From positions 1-64,000 of the forward strand of contig NZ_JAFREN010000011.1 of assembly GCF_017377505.1 (NCBI RefSeq): DNA of 64,000 nucleotides, written 5' to 3'. A program made the position numbers and the translations under genes. This document shows, in pieces, positions 18,158 through 47,470 of this stretch (positions within the stretch are counted from its first letter, which is position 1; each line of letters starts with the position of its first letter). Source of the stretch: Enterococcus sp. DIV0212c. GTDB lineage: Bacteria > Bacillota > Bacilli > Lactobacillales > Enterococcaceae. The notes beneath the pieces are model-generated. The model worked only from the letters and a program-made list of their open reading frames with translations, was not told the DNA's origin and ran no database searches.

Positions 18158-18191
18158 GTGAATTCCTCCATTTTTTATGTATGTATGTTGA

Positions 18192-18227
18192 TGGAGCGAA
18201 ACAAAATTATTTTTTAGTTCCGCTCCA
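18192..18227. repeat. Intra-operon hairpin between the WxL and WxL-interacting protein genes
   Basis: The stem TGGAGCG/CGCTCCA encloses an A/T-rich interior resembling the hairpins at 2885-2925 and 45756-45796. It sits inside a transcription unit and could set transcript stability or partial termination between the abundant WxL protein and its partner. Confidence 0.6.
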
Positions 18228-18241
18228 CTCCCTTATTTATA

Positions 18242-18826
18242 CTAGATATTTGCTGGTTGGTCCAACAATGTCCATGTCAATGTTGTTTCGTATTGTTTTG
18301 CTACTTTAACTGTTTCACCTGGTACTGATAGAACAGCAGCGTCTTTACCAAAACTTTCAATCGTTACACCGTTACCAAGGCCTGCTTCAGCGTCTAAAAT
18401 CGTTGCGCTTGAACCGTCTGTGTTTAGAACAACTTCTGTTTTTGCAGTTGCTGAACCTGTTGATTTTTCTGAAATAGTTGGTGTTTTCAATGTGATTTGG
18501 GCACTTGTCAATTCCTTTTTATCTGCTTTAAATTGTCCGTTTTGAGCAACTTGGACAGTCCATCCAGCTTCTGTTCCGCGGATATCTTGAACCGTTGTCG
18601 CTGTTTCGGTTTTACTTTTGTATACTTCATCATTAGCAGAAATAGGATTAGAACCGAAATCAAAATCAGCTACATTTAACAATGTCAACGCACCTTCTGT
18701 AGGAGCTGTAAACCCTATATCACTTTTAGACGCTTGATCCGCAACTTCCTCGGCATTTACGACCATACTTGTGCTGAAAATCATTGATACTGATGCTAAT
18801 ACTACTAAAATTTTGCTTGTTTTCAT
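18242..18826 (-). CDS. WxL domain cell-surface protein, locus 1
   Basis: This is a secreted protein of 194 aa that binds the cell wall non-covalently through a WxL domain. A signal peptide occupies about 1-25 (ending VVNA-EE). The remainder is one WxL domain: the proximal motif is GWTVQVAQNGQF (about residues 100-111) and the distal motif is LTWTLLDQP near the C-terminus. The GAGGAG ribosome site lies inside the last codons of the upstream small sortase-substrate gene, whose stop codon directly abuts this ATG, so translation is probably coupled. Confidence 0.92.
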   Translation of the reverse strand: MKTSKILVVLASVSMIFSTSMVVNAEEVADQASKSDIGFTAPTEGALTLLNVADFDFGSNPISANDEVYKSKTETATTVQDIRGTEAGWTVQVAQNGQFKADKKELTSAQITLKTPTISEKSTGSATAKTEVVLNTDGSSATILDAEAGLGNGVTIESFGKDAAVLSVPGETVKVAKQYETTLTWTLLDQPANI

Positions 18827-19102
18827 TTAAATTCTCTCCTCATTATTTAAAATTTTATATGATATCATTCCAGTTATAGATAACAGGATGGATATTCCAC
18901 TTATTAGTAAAACCTTGTTAGGTGAATCCTCACCCGTTTTGGGAAAACTATGCGTTTTCTGTGCTTCTTTTTCCTTTTCTTCATAAAAGCCGACTGTTAC
19001 TTGGCTATTTTCTGCAGCGTGACTTTCATTCATTCCAATCAAATAGATAAAATAACCACAGATTAGTAACCATTGAAGCCATTTTACTTTTTTATTTTTC
19101 AC
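18827..19102 (-). CDS. Small sortase-anchored surface protein (FPKTG motif), locus 1
   Basis: This is a small predicted wall-anchored protein of 91 aa. A signal peptide occupies about 1-28, a short linker follows, and then a sorting signal: FPKTGE at about 53-58, a hydrophobic helix and a terminal NNEERI tail. The start is taken as GTG at 19102, because AAAGGTG sits seven bases upstream and the signal peptide begins there; an earlier in-frame ATG at 19123 lacks such a site. The gene lies between the large and small WxL genes, the usual place for this component in WxL operons. FPKTG deviates from canonical LPXTG. Confidence 0.8.
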   Translation of the reverse strand: MKNKKVKWLQWLLICGYFIYLIGMNESHAAENSQVTVGFYEEKEKEAQKTHSFPKTGEDSPNKVLLISGISILLSITGMISYKILNNEERI

Positions 19103-19115
19103 AGCTAGGCACCTT

Positions 19116-21521
19116 TCAATCATTTGCTACAACATCGTATAATTCCCAGCTGATTTCACCAGAGTACTGCTCAGCTAACGCATCACCTGATTTCACAGCG
19201 ACTTTCAGTCCATCATCAGATGTTGCCCAATCATGAGTTATATTGTAATCGTCATGATTCGTTGTGACTGCTGATGTAATAACCGCTGATGAATTGGTGT
19301 GGATTGGAACGGATTGTCCATCCTTTACATAAAATAGTGCATCTGATAGTACATGCTCGGTTTTGTTTCCTGTCAAAGGCTTACTCAATGTTGCTCTCAA
19401 CTGCCAATTAGACCCTAGCGTGCGTGTATCTTTCACGACAATGTCTCGATCTTTTGCTTCGATCTTATATTCTTCATCCTTACTAGATAATGCATGCGTT
19501 CCAAAACTAATTTTTGTTGGTACATCTGAAAAACTTAAATGTCCTTGGTACTTATAGATCACTGTTTGTGCTTCGTTTGAAAAAGTCCCGGTCGCATTGG
19601 TCGGTACGGCTGTTAGTGTATAGCCTGGAATCTCTTTGGCCTCAGTTTGATACGGCTGGCTGACTTTTCCGTCTAAAATTTCCGTTGGTGCAATTTCTTG
19701 CCCATCCTCGTTTAGATAGTTTACAACAACCGATTTCCCTTGAACAAAATCAGCTTTAAGTTCAGCTTCATTGCTGGCTTTTGACTCCTCATTTACAGTC
19801 GTAACGGCTGTGTTAGGAATTGTGATTTGATTGATTTGGGGATCAGCTAATTCTTCTTGACTAAGTTTTAGACTGCCATTCAGTTCAATCGTGTAGGTCT
19901 TTCCATAAAACGATTCATCGGCTAAACTTTCTGGCTTTGCCTCGACCAATAATTCGTTCTCTGCATTTTTATTGAGAGTAAAATAATCAGCAGCGCTCCC
20001 TCCAGTTTCATCCTTGATCACGACATCTTCTGTAGCAATCGCTAAGGAATCTGCCAATGGATCTGTGATTTTTACTGTTTGGATCGGAAATCGTGAAGAG
20101 TAGGATGGAATTTTTTGGGTGATTGTATATAATCGTCTATTCTCATTTCCAGTGTAAGTAAACTGTTCTCCAACTTTGATCGGCGCTTCTAGTTCTTCTC
20201 CACCAATAATATCTCCTAGCCCAGGGAAGTCGTCATAATCAAACATAGCTGTGCTTTCCTCGGGACTGATCGGCATATTCGTATGAATATCATAACCAGA
20301 ATATACACTTCCCAACACTCGACCTTGTGTATCATCAAGTGTTACAGATGTTCTTGGTGCCAAAACACTTCCTATAAATAATGACGCATTACTTCTAAAT
20401 TGGATCTCTTGATCTTCATCATTAAAATTATGAACTAGATGCGTCGCTATCTTATAGGTTTTATCTTTTAACTCGTCAGAGATTGTATGACTATCAGATT
20501 TTATTAAAGGCACTGCTTTATCCGCATATTTCCCTTCAAAAAAGACGCCGTTGTTTCCTTCGAATTTGTATTCTTCATCTCCTGGTAAGCTAGGATAAGC
20601 TGCCGCATGGAAGAATGTGCTACCGCTAAAATTAAACGTTGGAAAGTGTTTATAGTTAATAAACAAGTATGGCGGCAACATAGTATCCGGATCATAATTT
20701 GTATAATTGATCGAGATGTCCTGAGCATTTTTGAAATGATCGATTTGGCCATCGACATTGACGATTGCAACAGCTTGTTCAGTCGTGCCTTTTTTCAGCG
20801 CAATATTGATCTGAATCGAGGATTGTCCGCCCCAGTCATTTGGGTTTACTACTTTTTTCTCTGTATTTACTTCTGCTGATTGAACAGCTGAATTATGAAC
20901 GACTGACTGATCGGTGTCGGTCAATGATGCATAATAATCACTGACGTTTTGAATGTTTCCAGTCACTTGAGAAAAATTTGAAATACCATTATCAGCAAAT
21001 GAAGGAAATGATTCGAGCGAGCCATTGTATAATCGTTTAGAGAATTTTTCTCGTAAATCAGGATAATACTGCAAGGCATCATTCATTTCTTTATCGGTCG
21101 GTAAATTTCCTAAATAGTAGTGCAAATCTTCATTATTCACATACTTGAAACTTGTCGCATTCGCATACAAACGAATGATGTCACTACCGGTGATCGTTTC
21201 AGAAACAACTGCTGGATCAATCTGGTCCAGATCCCACTGGCGAGTCGTATTTTGATAATTTTGAAAACCACCTTTGGACAAACCCGATGAACCATTAGAC
21301 GTTATATTTTTTGCTAAAAATTGACCAACAAGCTGTTTATCCTGCAATTGATCGGTATTAAGATACAGCGTACCGCCAGCTGTTAAATTCGTTTTTGTAG
21401 AAACTCCAAGTGGATAATCTCTAGGTGGTAAAACCGATTCAGCAAAAACCGTGTCTGACGAATCAATAATATGTAAAAGACAGAAAAACAAAACGAGTAA
21501 ACTAAAAATATTTTTTTTCAT
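19116..21521 (-). CDS. Large WxL-domain surface protein with choice-of-anchor-A-like and MucBP-like regions
   Basis: This large secreted protein (801 aa) has a signal peptide at about 1-27. The middle region (about 160-440) resembles choice-of-anchor A folds: the segment SLFIGSVLAPRTSVTL with GRVLGSVYSG is typical. Isopeptide/SdrD-B-like strands follow at about 450-620. A MucBP-type repeat lies at about 625-685 (VVNYLNEDGQEIAPTEIL, then PGYTLTAVP). The C-terminal WxL domain covers about 690-801, with NWQLRATLSKPL and ISWELYDV. It is the first gene of locus 1, preceded by ATAGGAGA. It is likely an adhesin displayed on the wall. Confidence 0.88.
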   Translation of the reverse strand: MKKNIFSLLVLFFCLLHIIDSSDTVFAESVLPPRDYPLGVSTKTNLTAGGTLYLNTDQLQDKQLVGQFLAKNITSNGSSGLSKGGFQNYQNTTRQWDLDQIDPAVVSETITGSDIIRLYANATSFKYVNNEDLHYYLGNLPTDKEMNDALQYYPDLREKFSKRLYNGSLESFPSFADNGISNFSQVTGNIQNVSDYYASLTDTDQSVVHNSAVQSAEVNTEKKVVNPNDWGGQSSIQINIALKKGTTEQAVAIVNVDGQIDHFKNAQDISINYTNYDPDTMLPPYLFINYKHFPTFNFSGSTFFHAAAYPSLPGDEEYKFEGNNGVFFEGKYADKAVPLIKSDSHTISDELKDKTYKIATHLVHNFNDEDQEIQFRSNASLFIGSVLAPRTSVTLDDTQGRVLGSVYSGYDIHTNMPISPEESTAMFDYDDFPGLGDIIGGEELEAPIKVGEQFTYTGNENRRLYTITQKIPSYSSRFPIQTVKITDPLADSLAIATEDVVIKDETGGSAADYFTLNKNAENELLVEAKPESLADESFYGKTYTIELNGSLKLSQEELADPQINQITIPNTAVTTVNEESKASNEAELKADFVQGKSVVVNYLNEDGQEIAPTEILDGKVSQPYQTEAKEIPGYTLTAVPTNATGTFSNEAQTVIYKYQGHLSFSDVPTKISFGTHALSSKDEEYKIEAKDRDIVVKDTRTLGSNWQLRATLSKPLTGNKTEHVLSDALFYVKDGQSVPIHTNSSAVITSAVTTNHDDYNITHDWATSDDGLKVAVKSGDALAEQYSGEISWELYDVVAND

Positions 21522-21694
21522 CGATTTCTCCTATCTGCTTACGTCCTTAGGTAAAGCTAATACAAGCAACTTTTCTTACTAATGAAATAATACAATTTTT
21601 TTCAGAAAAAATTTACATAATTATGAAACAATCTGTTTCAAAAATAAAAAAACAACAGTTCTTTATCCTGAAAACCCACCTACAGCAAGCAAAA

Positions 21695-21736
21695 CAAGGC
21701 TATAACAAAACAGTTAAATGTTTTGCTACAGCCTTG
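21695..21736 (-). terminator. Terminator of the Mga-like regulator gene
   Basis: An 18-bp stem from CAAGGCTATAACAAAACA to its near-complement ending GCCTTG has two wobble positions and a six-base loop. The minus-strand T-tract is modest. It separates the regulator from the WxL operon; the operon promoter presumably lies in 21522-21690. Confidence 0.7.
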
Positions 21737-21812
21737 ATAATGATAGAAAAAAGATATAAAAACGATATGAAAAATTTATATATTCTTTTTTGTAAATTAT
21801 AATTTCGATAAT

Positions 21813-23321
21813 CTAAAAAACTTTTTCATAAAAAATTCGATTGATGGCATCGATCATTTTTCCCCATTGTTCTGGGTTCAACTGTTCATCAAAGTAGAAA
21901 TGTTCCGTTGGTGGATTGACCGCTTCATAAGAGTCTGAAATAACCAAGTCAGCAGCCAATACATCGTTAGTAAAAACGATTCGATCTTGATTATAGACAT
22001 CTAATATAACCTTTTTAATTCCATCTGCCAAAATTAAATTATTATTAAAAATAACACAAATCGACATACTACCTGCTCTTTTACTTAAATAAATACCAGA
22101 ATAAATCGTCAATGTCAGAATCGACATAACACCTTTCGAGGAATTCTTGTTTATTTTAGAATAAAATTCCTGCTGCTCAATGATTTTTGTAATCTTTTGA
22201 AAAACCACCACATTTGCTTCATCATAGTCGATCATTGAATGAAAAGATAGCCCATTTTTGTAATAACCTGACGTATCAATATTGATATGTTTGATCGAAA
22301 TCAGTAAAATAATCAGATAAAAATAAAAATTTATATAGCCCTCTTCCGTATAATCTAGCTTAAATTCCTTTTGAATTTCTGTCATCAATTTGGTGGTATA
22401 TTCAGCTATTTCTAGTGAAGACTGTTGATAATCTTGAACGATTTTCTTTTTCGTTTCTAGCGAATCTAAATTGTAAACCAGCCCTCTAGTTGCATACAAC
22501 AATAAAGCCCGTTCTTTATGATATAGCTCATCCGTCAGTCGATGTTTTAACACTGACAGAAATTCTGTATCATTCGTATCAAAATAGGCAATATCTGCCA
22601 TAAATTCCGGCGACATTTCAATATTTTTTTTCTGCCAAAGGACTCTTTTTAAGGTAATCAATTGGATAAATCGCAGCTTCGCTCGTTGAGACTCTGACAA
22701 AGAAGTGGCATGATCAAAATAGGCTTCAGTTTCTTTGACTTCCGTCCAATCTTTCGGATAATTGGTGTAGAAAAAGGGCGTGTATTCTGTCGACTTAAAA
22801 ACAGACCAATAGGCATAAAAAGTAAATAAGCGAATACCGAGTTCATTCCCTGTTAAGCCGCTGGAATGCTGATCAAAAGTAATCTTTCCGCCAAAGGGAA
22901 TCAGCATTTTTTTTAATAACCGCAGTTGTTTATAAATGGATGAACTGCTCATATGTAGATCAAGTGCCATTGCTTCAATCGACACATATTGTTTTTTCAA
23001 TAGCGCATCTAAAATGAAAAAAATACCGCTTTGCTCAACGTAAAATAAATGAATATAATCGATCAGATAACCAATACTATAGGTTTCAGCGGTTCTGACT
23101 TGATATGTACCTGTTCGGCTGCTTTGATTTAGATGAACTTTCCCATCAAATGTCTGTTCCACCTCTTGTGACAAATCATTGATGTACCTGCTCAGGGTAC
23201 TCTTGGTGAGCTCATGCTTTTGCATTAAATCATTGAAACTCATGCCATGTTTTGAGAAAACGATTGATTTAAATAATTCAAACTTCAGCCGTTCTTTTTT
23301 TCCCATGAAAGAATTTTGCAT
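21813..23321 (-). CDS. Mga-like helix-turn-helix transcriptional regulator
   Basis: This 502-aa regulator has two N-terminal helix-turn-helix segments, at about 20-55 (KHELTKSTLSRYINDL) and about 95-130 (LHMSSSSIYKQLRLL). Long helical regions resembling the PRD-like domains of Mga follow, then an EIIB-like C-terminal region (about 410-500). This is the architecture of virulence regulators of the Mga/AtxA class, whose activity can be tuned by PTS phosphorylation. The start at 23321 is used because GGAGG lies five bases upstream. It lies immediately upstream of WxL locus 1 on the same strand and is likely its activator. Confidence 0.83.
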   Translation of the reverse strand: MQNSFMGKKERLKFELFKSIVFSKHGMSFNDLMQKHELTKSTLSRYINDLSQEVEQTFDGKVHLNQSSRTGTYQVRTAETYSIGYLIDYIHLFYVEQSGIFFILDALLKKQYVSIEAMALDLHMSSSSIYKQLRLLKKMLIPFGGKITFDQHSSGLTGNELGIRLFTFYAYWSVFKSTEYTPFFYTNYPKDWTEVKETEAYFDHATSLSESQRAKLRFIQLITLKRVLWQKKNIEMSPEFMADIAYFDTNDTEFLSVLKHRLTDELYHKERALLLYATRGLVYNLDSLETKKKIVQDYQQSSLEIAEYTTKLMTEIQKEFKLDYTEEGYINFYFYLIILLISIKHINIDTSGYYKNGLSFHSMIDYDEANVVVFQKITKIIEQQEFYSKINKNSSKGVMSILTLTIYSGIYLSKRAGSMSICVIFNNNLILADGIKKVILDVYNQDRIVFTNDVLAADLVISDSYEAVNPPTEHFYFDEQLNPEQWGKMIDAINRIFYEKVF

Positions 23322-23440
23322 AGATGCCTCCAATCTACTATTTTACCTACTGTCCTAAGCTTCATTCTTATTATAGAACACTTTAGATATCTATCCTTGA
23401 TAAACGCTCATGCAACTTTTCTACACTAAAAATAAAAAAG

Positions 23441-37393: not shown

Positions 37394-38470
37394 TCAGCGT
37401 TTTTTACGCTTTGCTGCTGCTTTTCTTCTCTGATTATTTTTCTTTTTATTTATAAGTCGAACACTAACAAATACGACTAAGATCACCATTAGAACACCTA
37501 AAATGATCATGACGATCAACTGCCAATTGATACGATTTTCTTGAAGCAAGCTAACATCTTCTTGATTAAACTTGTCTGCTTCTTCATTTGTAATGGTGAA
37601 TTTTTCTTCCCACTCCCACTTTTCTCCTGTCTTAGCTGTAACTAAAATATGGGCACGATAATCTCCAGGCACCATTTTTTCGCCATTCATTGATACTGGA
37701 AAATTGATTTTAGAGTTAGGCGCCATCCGCATTTTTGTCTGCTTGGTTTCATAAAGAACTTCATCGGATTTTTCACCCATTATTTGAACATCTACTGCCA
37801 TATTGTCCAAGTAGGCCGATTGTATATTTGAAAAGTCGATGATAATAGTATTACGGTAATTTTTTAGATCCGCATATACCTTATTAAATTCTAAGTCAGG
37901 TTTGATTTTTTTATCTGTCTCTGTTAATAACATTCCTACTAAATAGGCATATTTATTCTTGATCATGCCTTCTTGCTTTTCTGATTCTTGATCTCTTTGA
38001 ATCATATAAATACCGCCGGAAATAACGCCGTCAAATGTGGTTTCGGGCATTTTGATATCAAGCGAATAATCGATTGTTTGCTTTGGTGGGATCACGACTG
38101 ATTCTTTGCCTTTGACAATTTCAGCAAAATCATATTTTAAAGATAGATCTTTCTCCAAACTTGAAGGGCCATTTTCTAAGACACCGTTACTATTTGTTTT
38201 TGTGCTATTCAAGCTGACATCAACCGTAATTTCCTTGTCAGAGTTATTGCTCATTTGAATCACTGTTGTCTGTTTTTGTCCTGGTTTCATTCTCAAATCG
38301 AAATAACTTACTTCTTTATGTTGATTCTCTGGATAGATTACTTTATAGGTAAATCCGCCAGCCGCAGCTTTTTCGCTTTCTTTATCTGCCAATACGCTAT
38401 TAGGCATTACAAAAAGCGCTATTGCTATGTACATGAAACTTATTGACCAAATGATTGCTTTTTTTCTCAT
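37394..38470 (-). CDS. WxL-interacting protein (DUF916/DUF3324), locus 2
   Basis: This 358-aa protein has the same domain order as the locus 1 copy. A signal peptide spans about 1-28. DUF916 (about 40-155) carries YFDLRMKPGQKQTTV and the segment DIKMPETTFDGVISGGIYM. DUF3324 (about 165-295) carries KYAYLVGMLL and MAPNSKINFPVSM. One transmembrane helix spans about 314-340, followed by a very basic tail. It would anchor the WxL proteins of this locus to wall and membrane. It follows the WxL gene by 93 bp. Confidence 0.92.
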   Translation of the reverse strand: MRKKAIIWSISFMYIAIALFVMPNSVLADKESEKAAAGGFTYKVIYPENQHKEVSYFDLRMKPGQKQTTVIQMSNNSDKEITVDVSLNSTKTNSNGVLENGPSSLEKDLSLKYDFAEIVKGKESVVIPPKQTIDYSLDIKMPETTFDGVISGGIYMIQRDQESEKQEGMIKNKYAYLVGMLLTETDKKIKPDLEFNKVYADLKNYRNTIIIDFSNIQSAYLDNMAVDVQIMGEKSDEVLYETKQTKMRMAPNSKINFPVSMNGEKMVPGDYRAHILVTAKTGEKWEWEEKFTITNEEADKFNQEDVSLLQENRINWQLIVMIILGVLMVILVVFVSVRLINKKKNNQRRKAAAKRKKR

Positions 38471-38563: not shown

Positions 38564-39358
38564 TTATTCGCCTTCTTCAGGAATCCCAGAAGCTCGTGTA
38601 TCTGCAATCGTCCACGTAATTGTTGACGTGTATTCACTTGCTGTTGATAATTTATTATTTGCAGCTGGAATCCAAAGTTTTACCGATTTGTCTGCATTGT
38701 CATCAGCCATTTTACCGAAAACTAAATCAAAACGGCCAAACCCTTTATCGTCAGCATCTTGATTCACAAATTCTGATGGTGTTGTTCCATCTGTAGCTAA
38801 AACTTTTGTTGTTGGTGCGGCTGCAGGATTGATTTGGCCTGCATCACCAGTTGTTGTAAGACGGATATTATCATATGTGATTGTAGCAGCTTTCAATTCT
38901 TTACCTGCTGTATTCGTGAATGTTGACGCTTTTGCTGTTAACGTGTATTTGTTTGGCTTATCATCTGCACGTTCGTCTTTAAATGTAACAAAATTTGGCA
39001 TTTCAACTTCATTTGATTCATTGTCTTTTTCAGTTGTTTTAAAGCTTTTTGCGTGATATTCCCAACCACCAGCAGTTGCTGAAGTGATTTCATTTGTTCC
39101 AAAATCAAGTGGTGAAATAGCGATCACTTTCAATGGACCATTATCTGTATTTCCAGTTGGTTCAGTGATTTCAGGTCCATCGGTTTCTGGTGGTGTAATT
39201 GTATCTGTGCCCGTACCTTCTTGAGTGAATTTTACTTTACCTGTTGAAGAGTGAACTTTTTCATCGCCTCCGTCCGCTTTTGTTGCTGCTGGTAAAGCAA
39301 GTCCTATTCCGACTGCTGTTAATAATGCTGCTCCGCATAACTTTTGTGTTAATTTCAT
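38564..39358 (-). CDS. WxL domain cell-surface protein A, locus 2
   Basis: This secreted protein of 264 aa has a signal peptide at about 1-28 (KADGG). A Thr/Pro/Glu-rich linker follows, then one WxL domain. The proximal Trp motif is less clear here (GGWEYHAKSF, about 100-109), and the distal motif is STITWTIADT near the C-terminus. A strong AGGAAAC ribosome site precedes it. It is the smallest-linker member of the locus, and the second of two adjacent single-domain WxL genes. Confidence 0.9.
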   Translation of the reverse strand: MKLTQKLCGAALLTAVGIGLALPAATKADGGDEKVHSSTGKVKFTQEGTGTDTITPPETDGPEITEPTGNTDNGPLKVIAISPLDFGTNEITSATAGGWEYHAKSFKTTEKDNESNEVEMPNFVTFKDERADDKPNKYTLTAKASTFTNTAGKELKAATITYDNIRLTTTGDAGQINPAAAPTTKVLATDGTTPSEFVNQDADDKGFGRFDLVFGKMADDNADKSVKLWIPAANNKLSTASEYTSTITWTIADTRASGIPEEGE

Positions 39359-39387: not shown

Positions 39388-40191
39388 TTATGGCAACTCA
39401 GATAATATCCAAGTTAACATCGTTTGATAGTGGACTGGGTCCTTTTTTGTTTTACCTGGTATGGATAAAGAGACCGCATTGTTTTGATAGATTGGCTGGT
39501 TGTTGAAGCCCGGATCTAAAAACGGTTGGCCATGTTGGTCGATTCTAGGACTTAAAGTATCTTTTCGCCCCTGGCCATTATCGATTGAAGCACCGAAGAT
39601 GATCGACCATGTCCCTTCACCTGTTCCTGGTTTTGCTTGAGCTAAGTCATACGTCTCACCAATATTGTTGATGTGAATCACTTCTTTTGAGACATTCGGC
39701 GCGTATGATGCGCTGTTGATTGAATTCGTCCATGATTGGTCAAGTGAGATCACGGAACCTTTTAATTCCTTGTTTTGTGCAGACTCATTAGTCAATTGCG
39801 TTTCTTGCCGGACTTGTAAGCTCCAGCCGCTGCCTTTTTCCCGATAATCTGAGAGTTGAACAAAATTTCCTCTCGCACCTGTTCCATCTAAAAATAGTTG
39901 GGCATTTGCATAATACACCTGATCTTTTTCTGAAATCACATTGCTCCAAAAATTCAACTGAGGAACAAAATCAAATCTTAATGAACCTTCTGTTGTGGGA
40001 CTTGGACCTGGATTGACTTCTTTATCTGGATGTTCTGGATCTACAACGCCTTTGGGGTACTCTCCATTAAATTTGATTTTCCCGCTTTCTGAAGGGCTAC
40101 GTGGTTCAGCATTCACACTTATCGGCTGCATAAAGGAAAAGAACATGATCATAGCTACTACTTGAAGAAATACGCTGTTCATTTTCAACAT
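39388..40191 (-). CDS. WxL domain cell-surface protein B, locus 2
   Basis: This secreted protein has 267 aa from ATG at 40191. The longer open frame to 40284 overlaps the upstream gene and adds a non-signal-like leader, so it was rejected; AGGAAGAG lies ten bases before 40191. A signal peptide spans about 1-28 (ISVNAE). A short Pro-rich stretch follows, then a WxL domain with GWSLQVRQETQL (proximal) and LTWILSELP (distal, at the C-terminus). It starts 7 bp after the stop of the small sortase-substrate gene. Confidence 0.88.
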   Translation of the reverse strand: MLKMNSVFLQVVAMIMFFSFMQPISVNAEPRSPSESGKIKFNGEYPKGVVDPEHPDKEVNPGPSPTTEGSLRFDFVPQLNFWSNVISEKDQVYYANAQLFLDGTGARGNFVQLSDYREKGSGWSLQVRQETQLTNESAQNKELKGSVISLDQSWTNSINSASYAPNVSKEVIHINNIGETYDLAQAKPGTGEGTWSIIFGASIDNGQGRKDTLSPRIDQHGQPFLDPGFNNQPIYQNNAVSLSIPGKTKKDPVHYQTMLTWILSELP

Positions 40192-40198
40192 AGACTGA

Positions 40199-40552
40199 TC
40201 ACTCTTCCTTTCTATTTTCCGTTTGTTTTTTCTTTTTACGTTTCCATAAAATAAACAACACAACGAAAACAATAAGGACAACACCGCTAAGTGCTACACT
40301 TTTTTTCACCAATTCTCCTGTAGATGGATATCTGCCTTTAGGTTTCGTAGAAATATCTGACTGAGACTGAGAAGTTGTTGCTGTATTCTCTGCTGAACTG
40401 CTGCTTTCTGTACTAGACTCATAAAAACCAATACCTGCACTTGTCTGGACCTGCCCTATTTCTTCCGCACTAACAGTCAAAAAACCGCCTAAACCAAGCT
40501 TGAAGCCAATAACAGAGATCAATAGGAAATAAACTATACTTTTTTTCTTCAC
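40199..40552 (-). CDS. Small sortase-anchored surface protein (YPSTG motif), locus 2
   Basis: This small predicted wall-anchored protein has 117 aa from GTG at 40552. GGAGG lies seven to eight bases upstream of the GTG, and the signal peptide starts there, whereas the ATG at 40570 would place the ribosome site inside the coding region. A Ser/Thr-rich linker precedes the sorting signal YPSTGE (about 76-81), a hydrophobic helix and a basic tail. It is the positional equivalent of the FPKTG protein of locus 1; both deviate at the Leu of LPXTG. Confidence 0.8.
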   Translation of the reverse strand: MKKKSIVYFLLISVIGFKLGLGGFLTVSAEEIGQVQTSAGIGFYESSTESSSSAENTATTSQSQSDISTKPKGRYPSTGELVKKSVALSGVVLIVFVVLFILWKRKKKKQTENRKEE

Positions 40553-40570
40553 TGCGTTTCCCTCCATCAT

Positions 40571-43123
40571 TTAATAAGCTTCTTCCACACGCCAAATCAG
40601 TGTTGTTTCATAATCACCAACCAATTTAACCGCTCCAGATGGTACATCCAAACGAAGTCCTTGTTTATCAGGTCCCCACGTTTTTGTTGAGATGTTGTAT
40701 TGACCTGAAGCTTCATGTTTTGTGCGTAACACTTCTTGAGCATCAACGGATAGTGTTTTTTTATCAGTTGCTGTTTGATAACTCAAAACACCATTTAGCA
40801 CATGATCAGGACTATTTGGAATACTTAATTCATCTTCTAGCTTGACGGAGAGTTTCCAATTATCTAGGGTTTTACGGTTATCCCAAATGATCAAAGGCTG
40901 ATCATAGGAAGGATCGGCATCTTTTGTTCCTTTCCAACTAACCTCATGGCTTCCAAAATTTATTTCTGTCGGTCCTGAATAAATGGATAATGTTCCTTGA
41001 AATGTATAGGTCACTTTCGCGCCATCTGTATTGATCTCAACAGCTGTTTCATTTGCAGGACGTCCTGAGGTTTCTAGTAAATATCGTTGGGTAAGAACGG
41101 CTGCAATTGCATCTTTCACTTCTTTTTCTTTCGTTAAGTCGACTTTTTCACCGATCGTTTTTTCTTTTACAATCGCGTCATACAGTTTTCCACCTGATTC
41201 ATCTACAAATTGAACTGTCAAATTAGCCTTTGCTTTTTTATAATAGAAGTAGACATCTTGCCCTGTTTCCTGAACTGTGCCTGATGCATTTCCTTCCGTT
41301 CGATCATAGAGATAATCAGCGATAGAAATTGGCTTTTCATTATATAGTGTTCCAACTTTTTGATTTAGAATTTTTTGTGTTGCTAAATCCGCTTTATTTT
41401 CATCGACATAATGGATCGTTACTGTTCCTTTTAATAAGGGAATGTTTGCGATTACTGCGTTTGATGAAGACACCACTTCATTTTCTGAAGAAAGATAATC
41501 AAACGTAGACTTCAATTGAACATCATTTTCGTTCCCTGTAACTGTTGCTTCCAAGCTTAGTTCATACGGAATATCTGCACGTGAGAATGATAGATTGGAA
41601 ATGATCACCTGATTATCCACAATTTGAATCGATGCTTCCGGTATTTTTACGCCGTCTAATGCCAAAGAATTTGTCTTATAGGTCAATCCTTCAGCTAAAT
41701 TTACCCTCATTTTTGTTCCATCTGTACTCATAATGCTATTACCATCAAAAATAATCGTATCTTTCAGTTTTAACGTATCCCTTTTTTTAGCAGCGACTGT
41801 CTCTTGTGAGGGACTATTTTGGGTAAGATTTTCTATCTGCGCTGTTTGTTCAATATCTCCTGGTAATTGGGTAATCGCTATGGCATTTTCTTCATAAGAA
41901 CCACCCGTCGATCCAGTAAATCCCCAATACACTTCTGTTCCACCAAATTTTGCATTCAAATCGGTAATCTTGTAAGAATCTGAACCCACTCCAGAAAGTG
42001 TATACGACAATGTTTGCGTTGCAGAATCCCATAATACGTCTAGTGTTCTCCATGTATCATTGGATAAATATTCTGGTGATAATATCCAACTATGATGCTG
42101 ACCGGTGTAACTATTATTTTGCAGGCCAGGAGTGACAAAGGCCACATGTCCTTTTTTACCATTCTGACCAACTTCTCGATCCATACGATTGCTTGATCCA
42201 TTGTTAAAATACGTATCAAACTCAATCGACAAGCCTCTTTGAACATAGGGGTTCCCAGAACGACCACCATAATAGGCACCCAGACCCATACCAGAAGAAC
42301 CAATAACCGATGTAGGTGATGTTGCCATTCTAGGATCATTCTGTAAGGTAAACGTAATACCGTCACCTGCTTTTGCTCCTTGATCCCCTAAGTACAAATA
42401 GGATTTCAAGTGAAAGTCTTTTTTTAAATTTAATTTTCGTTGTGACCAGATCGCTCCAATTTGGCTACCTGTATTTTTCGTAACTCTTAGAACTTTTCCA
42501 TTATTGATTAATTCCGGCCCCGTTCCAATCGGTGCTCGAAAAATATCCAGTAATGGTAAACTATCCACAGGAGGCGTAGTTGCATCCCTTGTCAATGCTC
42601 TAGGTTGTTTCAGTGGCGCTTCATTTTGTGCGTCAGGTTCTGCCGATTGTTCCCCTGTTGGTACATCACCAAAATCAATGTTCTTTTCAACTAAACTTTC
42701 TTGCGTATTTCCTAGCAAGCTAATCTTCGCTTGCTTAGCAGTTAGTTCCTTTTTTACGTTAAAAGATAAAATAAGTGGTTTCGTGCCATTTTCAATGAAT
42801 AACTTTTTACTATTTGAGGTTTCTGTTTCCTCCAGCCTAACTTTTTCATCAAAAGCTGAATCAACTCCGCTATTCACTGTTTTTGAGTCGATTTCTTGGA
42901 TTCCTTCTGTTTGTAGTGTTAAATTTTGCTTTCTCGTGTTCTCGATCGTTAAAACAACCGTGGCTTGATTTAAATCAGCTTTATTAAAGGACTCAATTTT
43001 GACTTGATCATTTGGCTGGTCCGCTGCTTTGATTGGAGAAAATGACTGCATCATGAACAAAAAACTAATTACCGAAAGACACACGCCTATCCAAACAAAG
43101 ACTGCTATTCTTCTTTTTTTCAT
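40571..43123 (-). CDS. Large surface protein with L-type lectin-like and WxL domains
   Basis: This secreted protein has 850 aa. The start is ATG at 43123, with AAAGGGG nine to ten bases upstream; the in-frame start at 43177 overlaps the regulator gene. A signal peptide spans about 1-35. A bacterial legume-lectin-like domain lies at about 190-430 (IGAIWSQRKLNLKKDF, GDGITFTLQND, LSIEFDTYFN, VYWGFTGSTGG). Isopeptide-like and MucBP-like strands cover about 440-690 (VTIHYVDENKADL, LTVQFVDESGG). The C-terminal WxL domain (about 700-850) has NWKLSVKLEDEL and TLIWRVEEAY. It is the first structural gene after the regulator. Confidence 0.88.
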   Translation of the reverse strand: MKKRRIAVFVWIGVCLSVISFLFMMQSFSPIKAADQPNDQVKIESFNKADLNQATVVLTIENTRKQNLTLQTEGIQEIDSKTVNSGVDSAFDEKVRLEETETSNSKKLFIENGTKPLILSFNVKKELTAKQAKISLLGNTQESLVEKNIDFGDVPTGEQSAEPDAQNEAPLKQPRALTRDATTPPVDSLPLLDIFRAPIGTGPELINNGKVLRVTKNTGSQIGAIWSQRKLNLKKDFHLKSYLYLGDQGAKAGDGITFTLQNDPRMATSPTSVIGSSGMGLGAYYGGRSGNPYVQRGLSIEFDTYFNNGSSNRMDREVGQNGKKGHVAFVTPGLQNNSYTGQHHSWILSPEYLSNDTWRTLDVLWDSATQTLSYTLSGVGSDSYKITDLNAKFGGTEVYWGFTGSTGGSYEENAIAITQLPGDIEQTAQIENLTQNSPSQETVAAKKRDTLKLKDTIIFDGNSIMSTDGTKMRVNLAEGLTYKTNSLALDGVKIPEASIQIVDNQVIISNLSFSRADIPYELSLEATVTGNENDVQLKSTFDYLSSENEVVSSSNAVIANIPLLKGTVTIHYVDENKADLATQKILNQKVGTLYNEKPISIADYLYDRTEGNASGTVQETGQDVYFYYKKAKANLTVQFVDESGGKLYDAIVKEKTIGEKVDLTKEKEVKDAIAAVLTQRYLLETSGRPANETAVEINTDGAKVTYTFQGTLSIYSGPTEINFGSHEVSWKGTKDADPSYDQPLIIWDNRKTLDNWKLSVKLEDELSIPNSPDHVLNGVLSYQTATDKKTLSVDAQEVLRTKHEASGQYNISTKTWGPDKQGLRLDVPSGAVKLVGDYETTLIWRVEEAY

Positions 43124-43166
43124 TTTTAGTTGTCCCCTTTCAAAAAATGAAGTTAAGCATTTTATG

Positions 43167-43847
43167 TTACAATTCACATAGTAGATAGCCTCTTGATCTC
43201 ACTGTTTTTATATAAACAGGATTTGAAGCGTCTTCTTCTATTTTTCCTCTAATATGAAACATAACATTGGCAATTCTGTATTTTTCATCTGTGTATTTTT
43301 GATGCCAGACTGCTTGGTAAATCTCTTCATACGTTACTGTGTTGCCCAAGTTATCTACAAGAACTTGTAATGCTCTATATTCTAAATTTGTTAACGGCGC
43401 TGTTGGTTTCCCATCAATTTTCATTACTTGGTTTCTATTATCCAAAGTAATTGCAGTTGATTCTTCTTCTATTACTATCTCCTGTTGCTTTATCATTCTT
43501 TTTTTCAACGCATTTATTGTCGTTAATCGAATGATATCTATAGATTGCTCATCATCAAAAATCCCATCCGCACCTAGTTGGAGAAAAACGACTTTGCTTA
43601 TATTGTTCATATTTTGTGCAATGATCCAAATAAATACATTGGATCGTTCCCTTATTTTTAAAATCATTTCACTAGCAGCACAAATCGTGTCGTCGTTTTC
43701 ACTAAAAATAATGACGCCATCCATCTTTTCTAACTGTGGCTCTGTAATCTTTTGATCAATTTCTTCTACCGAACATTCCTTTTCGATTGAATGTATGTAT
43801 TTTTCTTCCTTAACTTCTGACAATTTTACATAACCTATGTGGTACAT
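43167..43847 (-). CDS. OmpR/PhoB-type winged-helix regulator, atypical receiver
   Basis: This 226-aa regulator has an N-terminal region (about 1-115) with a receiver-like alternation but without a convincing phospho-acceptor Asp pocket. The C-terminal winged helix (about 125-226) carries the OmpR-family pattern LTNLEYRALQVLVDN, VTYEEIYQAVW and VYIKTVRSRGYLL. No histidine kinase gene adjoins it. GAGGAGG gives a strong ribosome site. The large WxL gene starts only 43 bp after its stop, so the regulator and the WxL operon are probably one transcript. Its upstream region ends at the invertible segment described at 43975. Confidence 0.85.
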   Translation of the reverse strand: MYHIGYVKLSEVKEEKYIHSIEKECSVEEIDQKITEPQLEKMDGVIIFSENDDTICAASEMILKIRERSNVFIWIIAQNMNNISKVVFLQLGADGIFDDEQSIDIIRLTTINALKKRMIKQQEIVIEEESTAITLDNRNQVMKIDGKPTAPLTNLEYRALQVLVDNLGNTVTYEEIYQAVWHQKYTDEKYRIANVMFHIRGKIEEDASNPVYIKTVRSRGYLLCEL

Positions 43848-43974
43848 ATTTGTTCCTCCTCTTCCAATTACTCTTGTTTTTTACTCTATATTTATCCTTA
43901 TCCTTTCTTACTATTGGTTTTTTACCCAAAATATATTTTTGTGCTATACAAAACTTACAATCTATTTCCTTTAT

Positions 43975-43993
43975 CTTTATTGTTTGACAATAG
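43975..43993. repeat. Left inverted repeat flanking the recombinase gene (candidate crossover site)
   Basis: TCTTTATTGTTTGACAATA is exactly complementary to 45491-45509. Its core TATTGT-TTG-ACAATA is itself a dyad. Inward of it, the next 19 bases share 13 positions with the equivalent bases of the right copy (AGAA, G and TAAATAG conserved), so the two sites match at 32 of 38 positions in inverted orientation. Confidence 0.88.
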
Positions 43994-44071
43994 AGAACGT
44001 TCTTTAAATAGCTTGATAATACTGACTTTATCTTTCTTTTGACGATTTTCCTGACGGCTCTTACAATAAAA

Positions 44072-44098
44072 AAAATCGTGGGTATCATCCCACGATTT
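44072..44098 (-). terminator. Terminator of the recombinase gene
   Basis: The stem AAATCGTGGG/CCCACGATTT has a six- to seven-base loop and is followed by eight T on the minus strand. It overlaps the last codons of the recombinase and blocks read-through toward the regulator at 43847. Confidence 0.88.
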
Positions 44099-45245
44099 GT
44101 TCTAGTTTTTGAATTTCATTGAATTTTTGTGAAGAAGAAGAAAGCAGGCAATCAACTGCTGAAATAGCTGCTCGTCTATTTTCTAACATAGAATCTGTAT
44201 ATGTATCCAATGTCATTTTCACTGAAGTATGTCCTAGCAACCGACTTAAACTTGTAATATCCGCACCATTCTCCAAGCAACGAGTAGCAAACGTATGGCG
44301 TAATGCATGGAAATGAATGTTCTCTAATCCAGCGATACAAAGTAGCCGTTTAAAACGATAATTGATTAGTCTTGGCTCAATTACTCTTCCCTTATCAGCA
44401 ATAACATATTCACAATTTATTTCTTTTTTCTTTTCTAATAAATATTTTTTTAAATTTTGTGAGAGTGGAATAATTCTTCTGGAGCTTTCTGTTTTTGGTG
44501 ATCCTTCGATAAGCTGAGTTTTCGTTTTATCACCCGTTGATTTACTAATCCTATAGACCGTTCGTTGAACATGGATAGTTTCTTGATCAAAGTCAATATC
44601 ACTCCACTTTAACCCACTGATTTCACCAATTCTCATCCCAGAATACAAAGCCAAAATTATCGGTGAGCACGTTTTTGTTTGAAATGCGACCAACTCCAAT
44701 TTCCGTTGTTCTTTCATTGTTAAAGCTTGTACAGTCTTTATTTTTGTTTTTGGTAAGGTGCTCCCTATACAAGGATTTTGATTAATATAGCCTTTTTTCT
44801 CTGCTTCCCGTAAACATACTTTCAAAATATGGAAAATATTCCTTATGTACCCAGATGATAATTGTAATTTTTCCAAATATTCAATGAATTCTTGAACGTC
44901 AGCCACATTTATTTTAGTTAGTCTTTTTTTATTAAAATACAATAATAGATAATTGTTGATCACACCTGAATAAACAGAAAAAGTGGTTTCTTTAACCATT
45001 TTTTTCAAATATTTTTCTCTCCAAAGCAATACCCAATCTGAAAAATCACCATAATAAATATTTTGAACATTTTCTTTTCCAGCATATTTTGCTTTTAATA
45101 TCACTAGCCGCTCTTTAACTTCAGCATATTTTTTTCCATAAACATAGCCGTATTGAATTTTCCCGTCAGTATTGCGATTTTTAACATAACGCCCTTCCCA
45201 ACGTCCGTCTTTTCGTTTATAAATATTTTCTCCTTTTTTAGACAT
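44085..45245 (-). CDS. Tyrosine recombinase/integrase (Int family)
   Basis: This site-specific recombinase has 386 aa. An N-terminal arm/AP2-like DNA-binding segment (IYKRKDGRWEGRYVK, about 7-21) is followed by a SAM-like core-binding domain (about 70-165) and a catalytic domain. The catalytic Arg is in SGMRIGEISGLKW (about 210-222), the His/Arg pair in HALRHTFATRC (about 315-325), the second His in LLGHTSVKMTLDTY (about 338-351) and Tyr at the end of that stretch. The start is ATG at 45245, because GGAGG lies eight bases upstream; the frame to 45344 is not supported. Inverted repeats flank it at 43975 and 45491, suggesting an invertase role. Confidence 0.93.
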   Translation of the reverse strand: MSKKGENIYKRKDGRWEGRYVKNRNTDGKIQYGYVYGKKYAEVKERLVILKAKYAGKENVQNIYYGDFSDWVLLWREKYLKKMVKETTFSVYSGVINNYLLLYFNKKRLTKINVADVQEFIEYLEKLQLSSGYIRNIFHILKVCLREAEKKGYINQNPCIGSTLPKTKIKTVQALTMKEQRKLELVAFQTKTCSPIILALYSGMRIGEISGLKWSDIDFDQETIHVQRTVYRISKSTGDKTKTQLIEGSPKTESSRRIIPLSQNLKKYLLEKKKEINCEYVIADKGRVIEPRLINYRFKRLLCIAGLENIHFHALRHTFATRCLENGADITSLSRLLGHTSVKMTLDTYTDSMLENRRAAISAVDCLLSSSSQKFNEIQKLEQIVG

Positions 45246-45415
45246 AATGATTTCCTCCATATTTTTTGACGGTGTTTTTGACGGCTTATGCTCATACCCC
45301 TTCATAAAGCCTGTCCTGTCAATGATTTTCCCTATAAATGACAAAAAAAAGTGTTAATAGTTTTCTATTTTTTTCATCTTTTCGAAAAAATTGAAATAAT
45401 AATTTTAACATCCCA

Positions 45416-45444
45416 TTGACTTACTTGCGTTTTAACCTTAGAAT
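45416..45444 (+). promoter_or_regulatory. Outward-facing sigma-A promoter inside the invertible segment
   Basis: TTGACT and TAGAAT are separated by exactly 17 bp; each hexamer matches consensus at five of six bases. It points away from the recombinase, toward the right inverted repeat 47 bp beyond. In this orientation no gene follows on the plus strand. Predicted transcription starts at about 45451. Confidence 0.75.
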
Positions 45445-45490
45445 CATAGTTGTAATAGAATAAATTATTTTCTATTTATATTCCATTCTA

Positions 45491-45509
45491 TATTGTCAAA
45501 CAATAAAGA
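45491..45509. repeat. Right inverted repeat flanking the recombinase gene (candidate crossover site)
   Basis: TATTGTCAAACAATAAAGA is the exact reverse complement of 43975-43993. It lies 246 bp upstream of the recombinase start codon. Confidence 0.88.
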
Positions 45510-45634
45510 AATTTTTCAGAAATATTATAAATTTTTTATCTTTGAAATTGATTTTTTACCTTGTGTATTTATTTTAACCTATATAGATGACAATACTATT
45601 TGTTTCTAAAATTTTTTTTGAATAAGAAACAGCC

Positions 45635-45667
45635 GGCAGAACAAAAAAATATTTTGTTCTGCCTTTT
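45635..45667 (+). terminator. Terminator downstream of the outward promoter
   Basis: The perfect 12-bp stem GGCAGAACAAAA/TTTTGTTCTGCC is followed by TTTT on the plus strand. It would end a transcript from the 45416 promoter after about 215 nt. Confidence 0.6.
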
Positions 45668-45755
45668 ACGTTCTTTCCCTATATATTTCTACTTAGCTTC
45701 GTTCCTAGCACTCCCTATTTTCAGATGCTTATTCAGGAATATAAATAACAAAAAA

Positions 45756-45796
45756 GAGTGTGAAGCAAAACTAAAAATCAGTTTTGCTTCACACTC
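45756..45796 (-). terminator. Terminator of the second oligopeptide-binding gene; covarying hairpin
   Basis: This perfect hairpin of 41 nt has stem GAGTGTGAAGC/GCTTCACACTC and is followed by six T on the minus strand. Its interior is identical to that of the hairpin at 2885-2925, but the stem bases differ with pairing kept. Confidence 0.85.
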
Positions 45797-45817
45797 TAAA
45801 TTCTACTTATTTTTAAA

Positions 45818-47470
45818 TTAATCTTCAATATACGCCCATTTAAAGTCATATTTCGCACCAGTTGAATGGTACACAACATCTTTAACTTTATCAGAACGCA
45901 GGTGTGCTTCAGCTTTTTGATACAACGGAATAACGCCCATATCATCCATGATTATTTTTTCAGCATCTAGCATATCTTTCCAACGAGCTTCTGGATTGTT
46001 TGCGTTAGTTGTTGCAGCACTTTCTACTAATTTATCATATTCAGGATTTGAATAGTGTCCTCTATTATATGAATTGCCTGTTGTAAATAAATCTAAGAAA
46101 CTACTTGGATCAGCATAGTCTGCTCCCCATGCACTAACAGCGATTTGGAAATCACCTTTGTTAGAGCGATCCAAACGAACAGAAAATGGTACTGGACTAA
46201 CGGATACTTTTAATCCATCTAATGTTTCAGATAATGAACCTTGAAGATATTCAGCCATTTTCTTGGCATTGTCAGTATCATCAATCAATAAATCAACGGA
46301 TAATGAAGAAACGCCTAATTCGTCTTTCGCTTTTTTCCATGATTCTTTCGCTTTATCAACATCATAAACAACTTCGTTCCCTGATTCTTTAGCAAAATCT
46401 TCATCTGTTTTCGGATCAGCCGCTAAACCTTCTGGAACTAAACCAGTTGGAACAGCTGAACCATTTGCTAGAATTTGTTCAACTAAAGCTTTACGATCGA
46501 TTGCGTAAGATATTGCTTTACGTAAGTTTGCATTGCGATAAGGTGAATTTTCTTCTCTTTGATTTGGTTCAAGATAGAAAGTTGATGCACCTTTTAAGAC
46601 AATGTAGTTTGGTTCATTTTTCATTTGTTGTGCTAATTCACCAGATAATGGCACTTCATCCGCTTGTCCATCTTGGAATAGATTCAATGAAGTTGGTGCT
46701 TCTTTTACAACATCGATGGCAACTTTATCTAATTTTACCGTATCTTTATCCCAGTATTTGTCATTTTTTGTATAAGACCAACTTGTATCAGTTCCTGGTC
46801 CATCAAAATCAGTTAATGTGAATGGGCCATTATAAACTGCCTTATCACTTGCTGTTGTGTAATCTTTGCCATATTTTTCAGCAATATCTTGTCTTTGCGG
46901 TAAAAATGACGGAAAGGCTAGTAAGTAATCAAAATATGGTGTTGCTTTTTCTAACGTGATTTCTAATTCATAATCACCAATGGCTTTGATGCCAAGTTCT
47001 TCTTTTTTCATTTCGCCTTTAGCAATCTTTTCAGCATTTTTTACAGAGTTAAACATGTATGCATACTCTGATCCAGTTGCTGGATCAACAGTTCTCTGCC
47101 AACCATAAACAAAATCCGCAGCTGTTACTGATTTGTCATCTGTCCATTTAGCGTCTTCTCTTAATTTGATCTTGTACGTTAAACCATCTTCACTGACTGT
47201 AGCCATTTCTGCTGCTCCAGCAGGTTGAGGTTTGCTATCTTTATCTAGACGATAAATTCCTTCATATACATTGTTCAATGCAACAAAACTTACTTCATCA
47301 GTCGCAAGTGAAGGATCTGCACTTGGCATTTCTTGTTTTTCAATGAATCTAAATACTTTTTCATCACTGCCAGTTCCACTATCAGCATTTTTAGAATTTC
47401 CACCGCAAGCAACTAGGGCAATACTTGATACAGTGACCAATCCTAGTAAGGCAATTTTCTTTAATTTCAT
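45818..47470 (-). CDS. Oligopeptide ABC transporter substrate-binding lipoprotein (OppA family), second copy
   Basis: This extracellular peptide-binding lipoprotein has 550 aa and the lipobox IALVAC at about residues 17-22. It is very similar to the protein at 8340-10010 over the whole length; the segments NGPFTLTDFDGPGTDT and ADPSSF.DLF are shared. The strongest differences lie between about 300 and 420. No permease genes adjoin it. It begins after the recombinase segment and ends at its own terminator. Confidence 0.93.
   Translation of the reverse strand: MKLKKIALLGLVTVSSIALVACGGNSKNADSGTGSDEKVFRFIEKQEMPSADPSLATDEVSFVALNNVYEGIYRLDKDSKPQPAGAAEMATVSEDGLTYKIKLREDAKWTDDKSVTAADFVYGWQRTVDPATGSEYAYMFNSVKNAEKIAKGEMKKEELGIKAIGDYELEITLEKATPYFDYLLAFPSFLPQRQDIAEKYGKDYTTASDKAVYNGPFTLTDFDGPGTDTSWSYTKNDKYWDKDTVKLDKVAIDVVKEAPTSLNLFQDGQADEVPLSGELAQQMKNEPNYIVLKGASTFYLEPNQREENSPYRNANLRKAISYAIDRKALVEQILANGSAVPTGLVPEGLAADPKTDEDFAKESGNEVVYDVDKAKESWKKAKDELGVSSLSVDLLIDDTDNAKKMAEYLQGSLSETLDGLKVSVSPVPFSVRLDRSNKGDFQIAVSAWGADYADPSSFLDLFTTGNSYNRGHYSNPEYDKLVESAATTNANNPEARWKDMLDAEKIIMDDMGVIPLYQKAEAHLRSDKVKDVVYHSTGAKYDFKWAYIED

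Follow-up and report, generated by a model that had tools for sequence, protein, structure and literature searches.

A recombinase-bearing segment upstream of a WxL surface operon is one of many probable self-contained promoter switches of Enterococcus genomes

Introduction

In the Salmonella Hin switch (the H segment), an outward-facing promoter lies within a segment that is bounded by inverted sites. At fimS, a tyrosine recombinase inverts a promoter that stands before a surface operon; the enzymes concerned, FimB and FimE, are about 200 aa long, have no N-terminal arm domain and are encoded outside the segment. In Bacteroides, where surface genes likewise phase-vary by inversion, Mpi is a single recombinase for several switches. 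Strand exchange by a tyrosine recombinase demands a matching overlap in both sites. The WxL proteins considered here make up surface complexes of enterococci.

In published accounts, the Hin gene lies inside its own invertible segment (PMC5903667) and Hin is a serine recombinase that uses an enhancer with Fis sites (PMC3798978). RecV of Clostridioides difficile is described there as driving phase variation of surface genes by inversion, one RecV recombinase serving several switches (PMC5903667). Such accounts also give integrases of ICEs and phages as the documented members of the IntTn916 subgroup (PMC8138268), and link a tyrosine recombinase family to invertons of Clostridia (inverton group 139 with invertase group 35; PMC11892184). 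Two printed examples of group 139 have about 200–230 bp between the repeats, so that in these the invertase cannot lie inside, and a median of 0 invertons is reported in the same text for Bacillus-like Firmicutes (PMC11892184).

Our study concerns a segment of Enterococcus sp. DIV0212c, found in a stretch of 64 000 nt (NZ_JAFREN010000011.1, positions 1–64 000; hereafter the window), that shares features with each of these systems. Like the H segment, it holds a recombinase gene and an outward promoter together, but its enzyme is a tyrosine recombinase with arm-type repeats, present in several separate copies per genome. As at fimS, a tyrosine recombinase and a promoter precede a surface operon, although the window enzyme is 386 aa long and is encoded inside the segment. 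Whereas RecV and Mpi each serve several switches, every Enterococcus switch of this kind has an enzyme to itself and, in most cases, a private overlap. The enzyme is well conserved at its N-terminus and arm-type repeats lie close to each core, both of which recall the IntTn916 subgroup (Tn916, Tn1549), but the sites in the window are inverted and no cargo is evident. Groups 139 and 35 resemble the segment in that a tyrosine recombinase is tied to invertons. The initial annotation of this DNA had likened the locus to fim-type switches, which needs correcting, as the enzyme appears nearest to the Tn1549 integrase, has arm-type repeats and is encoded inside the segment as in Hin.

Among the titles and opening lines of abstracts that searches of the open-access literature brought up, none describes a switch for WxL loci, in agreement with the initial annotation. 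The same open-access material contained no integrase with arm sites that inverts a promoter. The Enterococcus switch family itself did not turn up in this search.

Results

The segment is bounded by an exact 19-bp inverted repeat (43974–43992 and 45491–45509) that extends to 38 nt at 84 % identity. The repeats and their 32-of-38 extension had been noted initially and stand, although the start then given, 43975, was off by one. An arm search scored the repeats at 21, compared to 12 for the best of three shuffles, and in a whole-genome DNA search each arm retrieved the other (E 8.8e-4). An alternative junction elsewhere in the host genome (3.54 Mb, 41 contigs) was sought and rejected, as the 19-mer with up to two mismatches occurs only at both known arms. 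The arms are contained in two 27-bp recombination sites, one at 43972–43998 on the plus strand and the other, inverted, at 45485–45511 on the minus strand; these are equal at 24 of 27 positions, including an identical central overlap of GTTTGAC, and their centres at 43985 and 45498 enclose a segment of 1513 bp.

Inside the segment lies the gene for a tyrosine recombinase of 386 aa (44085–45245, minus strand; Pfam PF00589), which starts at an ATG behind GGAGG. Residues R205, K251, H313, R316, H339 and Y349, which by family knowledge we take to be the catalytic R-K-H-R-H and tyrosine, are invariant across 25 aligned recombinase sequences. The family survey and the sister-switch inversions described below support the earlier reading of a self-encoded tyrosine recombinase. 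The best profile match was to the Int protein of solved structures 6en0/6emy/6emz (E 8e-32). This is presumably the Tn1549 Int (PMC8138268). By comparison, the NCBIfam tyrosine-type invertase models PRK09870 and PRK09871 (FimB/FimE) gave 21.5 and 27.4 bits against cut-offs of 221 and 222, and membership of PF00589 sets the enzyme apart from the serine recombinases of Hin-type inversion. By these matches, the enzyme appears to resemble the Tn1549 integrase most, and not FimB or Hin. Residues 1–45 were the best conserved of the stretches compared, and within the N-terminal motif GENI.KRKD.RWE.R the elements GENI, KRKD and RWE were invariant or nearly so in the 25 aligned recombinases.

The regulator (43167–43847, minus strand) is the first gene of the operon and has an OmpR-type winged-helix DNA-binding domain (Pfam PF00486), with no Pfam match to a receiver domain. 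Its adjacency to the left repeat holds as first described, at a distance of 126 bp and not 128 bp. On the same strand follow a large surface protein with L-type lectin, MucBP and WxL domains (40571–43177, likely start ATG 43123), a small LPXTG protein of the EF2685/EF0750 family (40199–40570; NCBIfam NF053819, above cut-off), two WxL-domain proteins (39388–40284 and 38564–39358) and a WxL-interacting protein with two domains (WxLIP; 37394–38470). Some 43 nt separate the regulator stop from the likely first WxL start at 43123, and the terminator scan found no terminator between the regulator and the first WxL gene; given this short gap and the lack of a terminator, the regulator and the WxL operon are likely to share one transcript. 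The window also contains a second WxL operon (17102–23333), with no recombinase among the frames listed beside it and with a regulator (21813–23333) that is AcpB/EbpR/MafR-like, below cut-off.

At the right end of the segment, an outward promoter, TTGACT-N17-TAGAAT (45416–45444, plus strand), points away from the regulator as sequenced. Promoter-like sites in the window alone are at chance level (12 found, 13.2 expected), and so the claim of the initial annotation for this promoter is carried by its conservation in the orthologues and the family. The recombinase terminator that had been placed at the left end was found as an intrinsic terminator (44098–44073, minus strand) between the recombinase and the regulator. 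Beyond the right site, a two-way terminator (45635–45663) precedes a convergent SBP_bac_5 gene and appears to be placed to stop the outward promoter ahead of that gene.

The family was surveyed in 22 genomes of the genus, one per species, with frames of at least 250 bits kept from the places listed; weaker members (<250 bits) are missing from the survey. All 22 genomes had recombinase matches, with at least 12–27 per genome among the matches listed, remote ones included. Repeats flanked 124 of the 153 recombinases of at least 250 bits among these matches, at a score threshold of 17 that was our own choice; scores of 3060 shuffles averaged 10.6, with 14 as the 99th percentile and 18 as the highest value. 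The two entries of one genome, G021, are a single locus, so that the 124 entries represent 123 loci. A regulator homologue was found beside 111 of the 124 repeat-flanked recombinases among the matches listed (109 downstream in the same direction, two divergent on the other side), leaving 13 with none, and a WxL-type gene lay within 6 kb downstream in 86 of the 124 entries and on the other side in two. Segment lengths in the family ranged from 1429 to 1963 (median 1559). The host genome has eight repeat-flanked recombinases among its nine listed members, all eight in the OFF-like orientation, and Enterococcus genomes hold up to 10 switches each among the matches listed, mostly before regulator and WxL genes. 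Of the 29 recombinases without repeats at the threshold of 17, only four had a downstream regulator homologue. Distances between recombinases and between regulators were correlated (n=111, r=0.67, Mantel p=0.001), as would be expected of a recombinase–regulator module that is jointly inherited. The initial annotation had named loss of the repeats from beside the recombinase in relatives as evidence against a switch; the survey and the arms of the orthologues confirm instead that the two are conserved together. In our reading, the segment is one member of a large Enterococcus family of probable self-contained promoter switches.

A group of family members (L191, L198, L204, L215, L290, L291, L294, L301, L303–L305 and others) has neither repeats nor a downstream regulator homologue, and several of them are near WxLIP genes. 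These members may use distant sites or may have lost switching.

Alignment of 123 site pairs on the dyad centre, from which L266 was left out as its stretch was too short, gave an arm-to-arm mismatch of 0–1 % at offsets −3 to +3, of no more than 15 % out to offset 12 and of 45–79 % from 14 outward; the repeat search favours alike arms and so inflates arm identity generally, though not at the centre specifically. This profile defines the site as a 27-bp dyad with a 7-bp overlap, and in many loci the dyad runs from TTTCTT to AAGAAA. Every odd dyad with a score of 13 of 20 or more (118 of 118) had one and the same overlap on its two arms, a count that omits five site pairs (four even dyads and one of low score), and 67 different overlaps occurred among them. 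Overlaps that are identical within loci, yet varied between them, would be hard to explain without continuing selection for recombination. Avoidance of shared overlaps within a genome was considered and set aside, as 2 of 314 within-genome pairs share an overlap compared to 95 of 6589 between genomes, which is too few for a claim, one of the two being the single G021 locus counted twice.

Just upstream of the recombinase ribosome-binding site lies a pair of arm-type repeats, CCGTCA, 12 bp apart (45267–45284, minus strand), and a second pair of the same orientation and spacing, CCGTCA and TCGTCA, lies inward of the left site (44040–44057, minus strand). Across the family, CCGTCA in the direction of the recombinase was found in the upstream interval of 114 of 123 loci and in the downstream interval of 110 of 123, with about 1.2 expected in each, compared to one upstream and three downstream of 123 in the reverse direction. 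Neighbouring copies, with one base relaxed, were 12 bp apart in 135 of 154 pairs and 11 bp apart in 15 of 154. The motif extends outside Enterococcus: among 49 loci there, mostly from Clostridia, 43 carry it upstream and 33 downstream, with about two expected in each. The near-invariant N-terminal motifs of the enzyme would fit a constant arm site that is read by a constant domain, alongside variable cores.

Promoter scores of at least 9.5 were reached on the outward strand, in the 150 nt next to the upstream site, by 94 % of 123 segments, compared to 28 % of shuffles (p=2e-36, a value that, like the promoter p-values that follow, treats related loci as independent). No enrichment was seen on the inward strand for a promoter of the recombinase (p=0.82), or between the arm and the regulator (n=95, p=0.75). 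Matches to a strict pattern, T[TA]GAC-N18-TANNNT, were present outward in 82 of 123 segments and on the regulator side in 0 of 123, where scores, including those of the last 75 nt of the segment, were below those of shuffles. A regulator promoter located outside the segment, beyond the left repeat, had been named at the outset as evidence that would count against a switch; it was sought in this way by sequence across relatives and was not found. The next predicted frame of at least 100 aa beyond the upstream site ran along the promoter in 44 of 123 loci and against it in 79 of 123, so that a second, opposite promoter target is not general. Shuffles preserved dinucleotides in the tests of 9.5-score promoters, of the arm-to-regulator interval and of terminators, and single bases only in the repeat searches, the arm-motif expectations, the strict-promoter and regulator-side comparison and the integrase controls. 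The core, the outward promoter, the arm-type pairs and the terminator are all conserved between the window and its three orthologues.

Two sister switches occur in both orientations. In G021, one contig of 3.84 Mb carries the same sequence at its two ends (99.9 % identity between the first 40 kb and nearly the last 40 kb); these ends are collinear except for the segment at 18637–20196, which is reversed from repeat to repeat. The arms of the two copies differ at three places, of which the outer one is swapped between copies and the two inner ones are kept with the segment; this is the pattern that a crossover between them predicts, and the hybrid arms thus place the crossover in the core. We take the redundant contig ends to be an untrimmed circular assembly; they may also be a true duplication or an assembly error. 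In G006, one switch lies the other way round from its G013 and G020 orthologues, between flanks that are collinear.

At the window locus, the opposite orientation that the initial annotation had proposed to look for in related genomes was not found, as three of three orthologues share the window orientation, and a search for its hybrid junction among viral contigs gave 0 matches. As no flipped copy of the window locus is among these, its switching is only inferred. The present orientation had been read as OFF, and both the family survey and the two sister-switch inversions suggest that this is so. Of the 124 repeat-flanked entries, in which orthologous loci are not independent, 109 are OFF-like and two ON-like, a bias which indicates that flipping is either rare, strongly biased or selected against in culture.

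One orthologue of the window switch (L180, G006:C1:2530159-2531694) has a recombinase that is broken by several stops; despite this, its 19-bp arms are still exact, and its orientation is OFF-like. This copy may be locked or served in trans. On megaplasmids of E. raffinosus, four strains carry a switch in a single orientation and a fifth lacks a switch at that place. One such locus (L262, plasmid NZ_CP081847.1, 124773–137858) has an OmpR-type regulator and an accessory Sec operon (SecA2/SecY2/Asp1) downstream, and in strain HG-5 the orthologous gene (L258) is broken up into two frames.

Discussion

Taking this evidence together, we estimate a probability of roughly 0.85 that the segment is an invertible promoter cassette controlling the regulator and the WxL operon. 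The recombinase would bind both 27-bp inverted core sites, with its N-terminal region probably binding the CCGTCA arm-type pairs, and strands would be exchanged within the 7-bp overlap. As sequenced, the promoter would face away from the regulator and run into a terminator, and the recombinase transcript would stop at its own terminator, which would leave the regulator and WxL operon without an evident promoter (OFF). Inversion would put the promoter in front of the regulator and give a leader of about 185 nt (ON), a length predicted by the initial annotation that agrees with the 191 nt counted on the sequence from the −10 box to the regulator ATG in the inverted arrangement.

It is less probable by far, and in our view unlikely, that the family works as proposed while the window copy is locked or nearly so, with its recombinase silent or its sites dead and the operon permanently OFF or driven from elsewhere. 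Such a state would be consistent with three orthologues that lack an inverted copy and with the broken recombinase of the G006 orthologue in the same orientation. However, the recombinase frame of the window is open and retains the catalytic residues, the match between its arms takes in the overlap, and the promoter and arm pairs are conserved.

A minimal or decayed mobile element, that is, an ICE or prophage integrase with its ends, whose position at a surface operon reflects an insertion preference, would also account for an enzyme related to mobile-element integrases, and we regard this as very improbable. Relatives of the recombinase were found at 41 viral-contig loci and in 72 phage records. 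Identity was 23–38 % for the viral-contig loci and below 60 % for all the phage records (27–36 % in the 15 listed), and at these values an identification as a phage integrase was rejected. Among the viral-contig relatives of at least 170 bits with enough flank, three of seven (L331, L336 and L342) were repeat-flanked and four of seven were not, and 24 control integrases that scored under 165 bits and had sufficient flank (19 viral, five from the host genome) all stayed below 17, the highest reaching 14. Directly repeated attachment sites, as expected of an integrative element, were not found around the segment. The matched 38-nt sites are inverted and not direct, so that inversion, and not excision, would be the outcome. 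Six direct-repeat families lie within 43600–45900; two of them have members to both sides of the segment, but these reach only 17 nt (88 %) and 14 nt (93 %), and neither lies at the recombination sites. Apart from the recombinase, no open frame wholly inside the segment exceeds 65 aa. The promoter would aim at the regulator after inversion, with none on the regulator side, the recombinase and regulator distances are correlated, and two loci have been seen inverted. On the strength of the inverted sites, the poor direct repeats, the lack of a long inner frame and the conserved promoter and terminator, we reject the mobile-element reading.

That the present orientation is instead the expressed one, through recombinase read-through or a weak promoter, with inversion as the off state, is very unlikely, since the minus-strand candidate concerned (44045–44016, matching 9 of 12 positions), which would now read toward the regulator, overlaps an arm-type repeat, a terminator lies between the recombinase and the regulator with family terminator scores enriched there, and the regulator side scores below shuffles for promoters, even though most repeat-flanked entries (109 of 124) lie in this orientation.

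Returning to the invertible cassette, we consider it probable, at somewhat lower confidence, that it represents a Firmicutes family of Tn916/Tn1549-type integrases which have been turned into self-contained promoter switches with shared arms and their own overlaps, several of them independent in each genome. With a separate core overlap for each copy, one genome could house several independent switches, and this design of private overlaps and shared arms offers a natural test of how one enzyme family separates parallel switches. If this is true, a single cell line could present many kinds of surface, with up to 256 states should all eight switches of the host genome flip independently. Cultures may then be mostly OFF, and work on WxL operons would have to include a check of orientation.

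Relatives of the recombinase outside Enterococcus, mostly in Clostridia, were repeat-flanked at a score of at least 17 in 41 of 48 assessed loci. The Clostridia relatives are arranged in the same way between repeats, and some of them stand ahead of surface or secretion genes of other kinds; the targets given here are single selected loci and not a count. L106 and L123 lie directly before FtsK/SpoIIIE (EssC-like) genes in the style of type VII secretion, a layout that hints at switchable type VII secretion. L112 and L149 precede repeat-rich surface proteins, the repeats of L112 scoring only 15, while L108 precedes cohesin/dockerin and S-layer proteins and L129 a sugar epimerase. A further Clostridia locus, L136, has inverted-repeat arms of 112 nt that contain the arm-type motif and lies near a TraG/VirD4-type conjugation gene, and is perhaps an intermediate between a mobile element and a switch.
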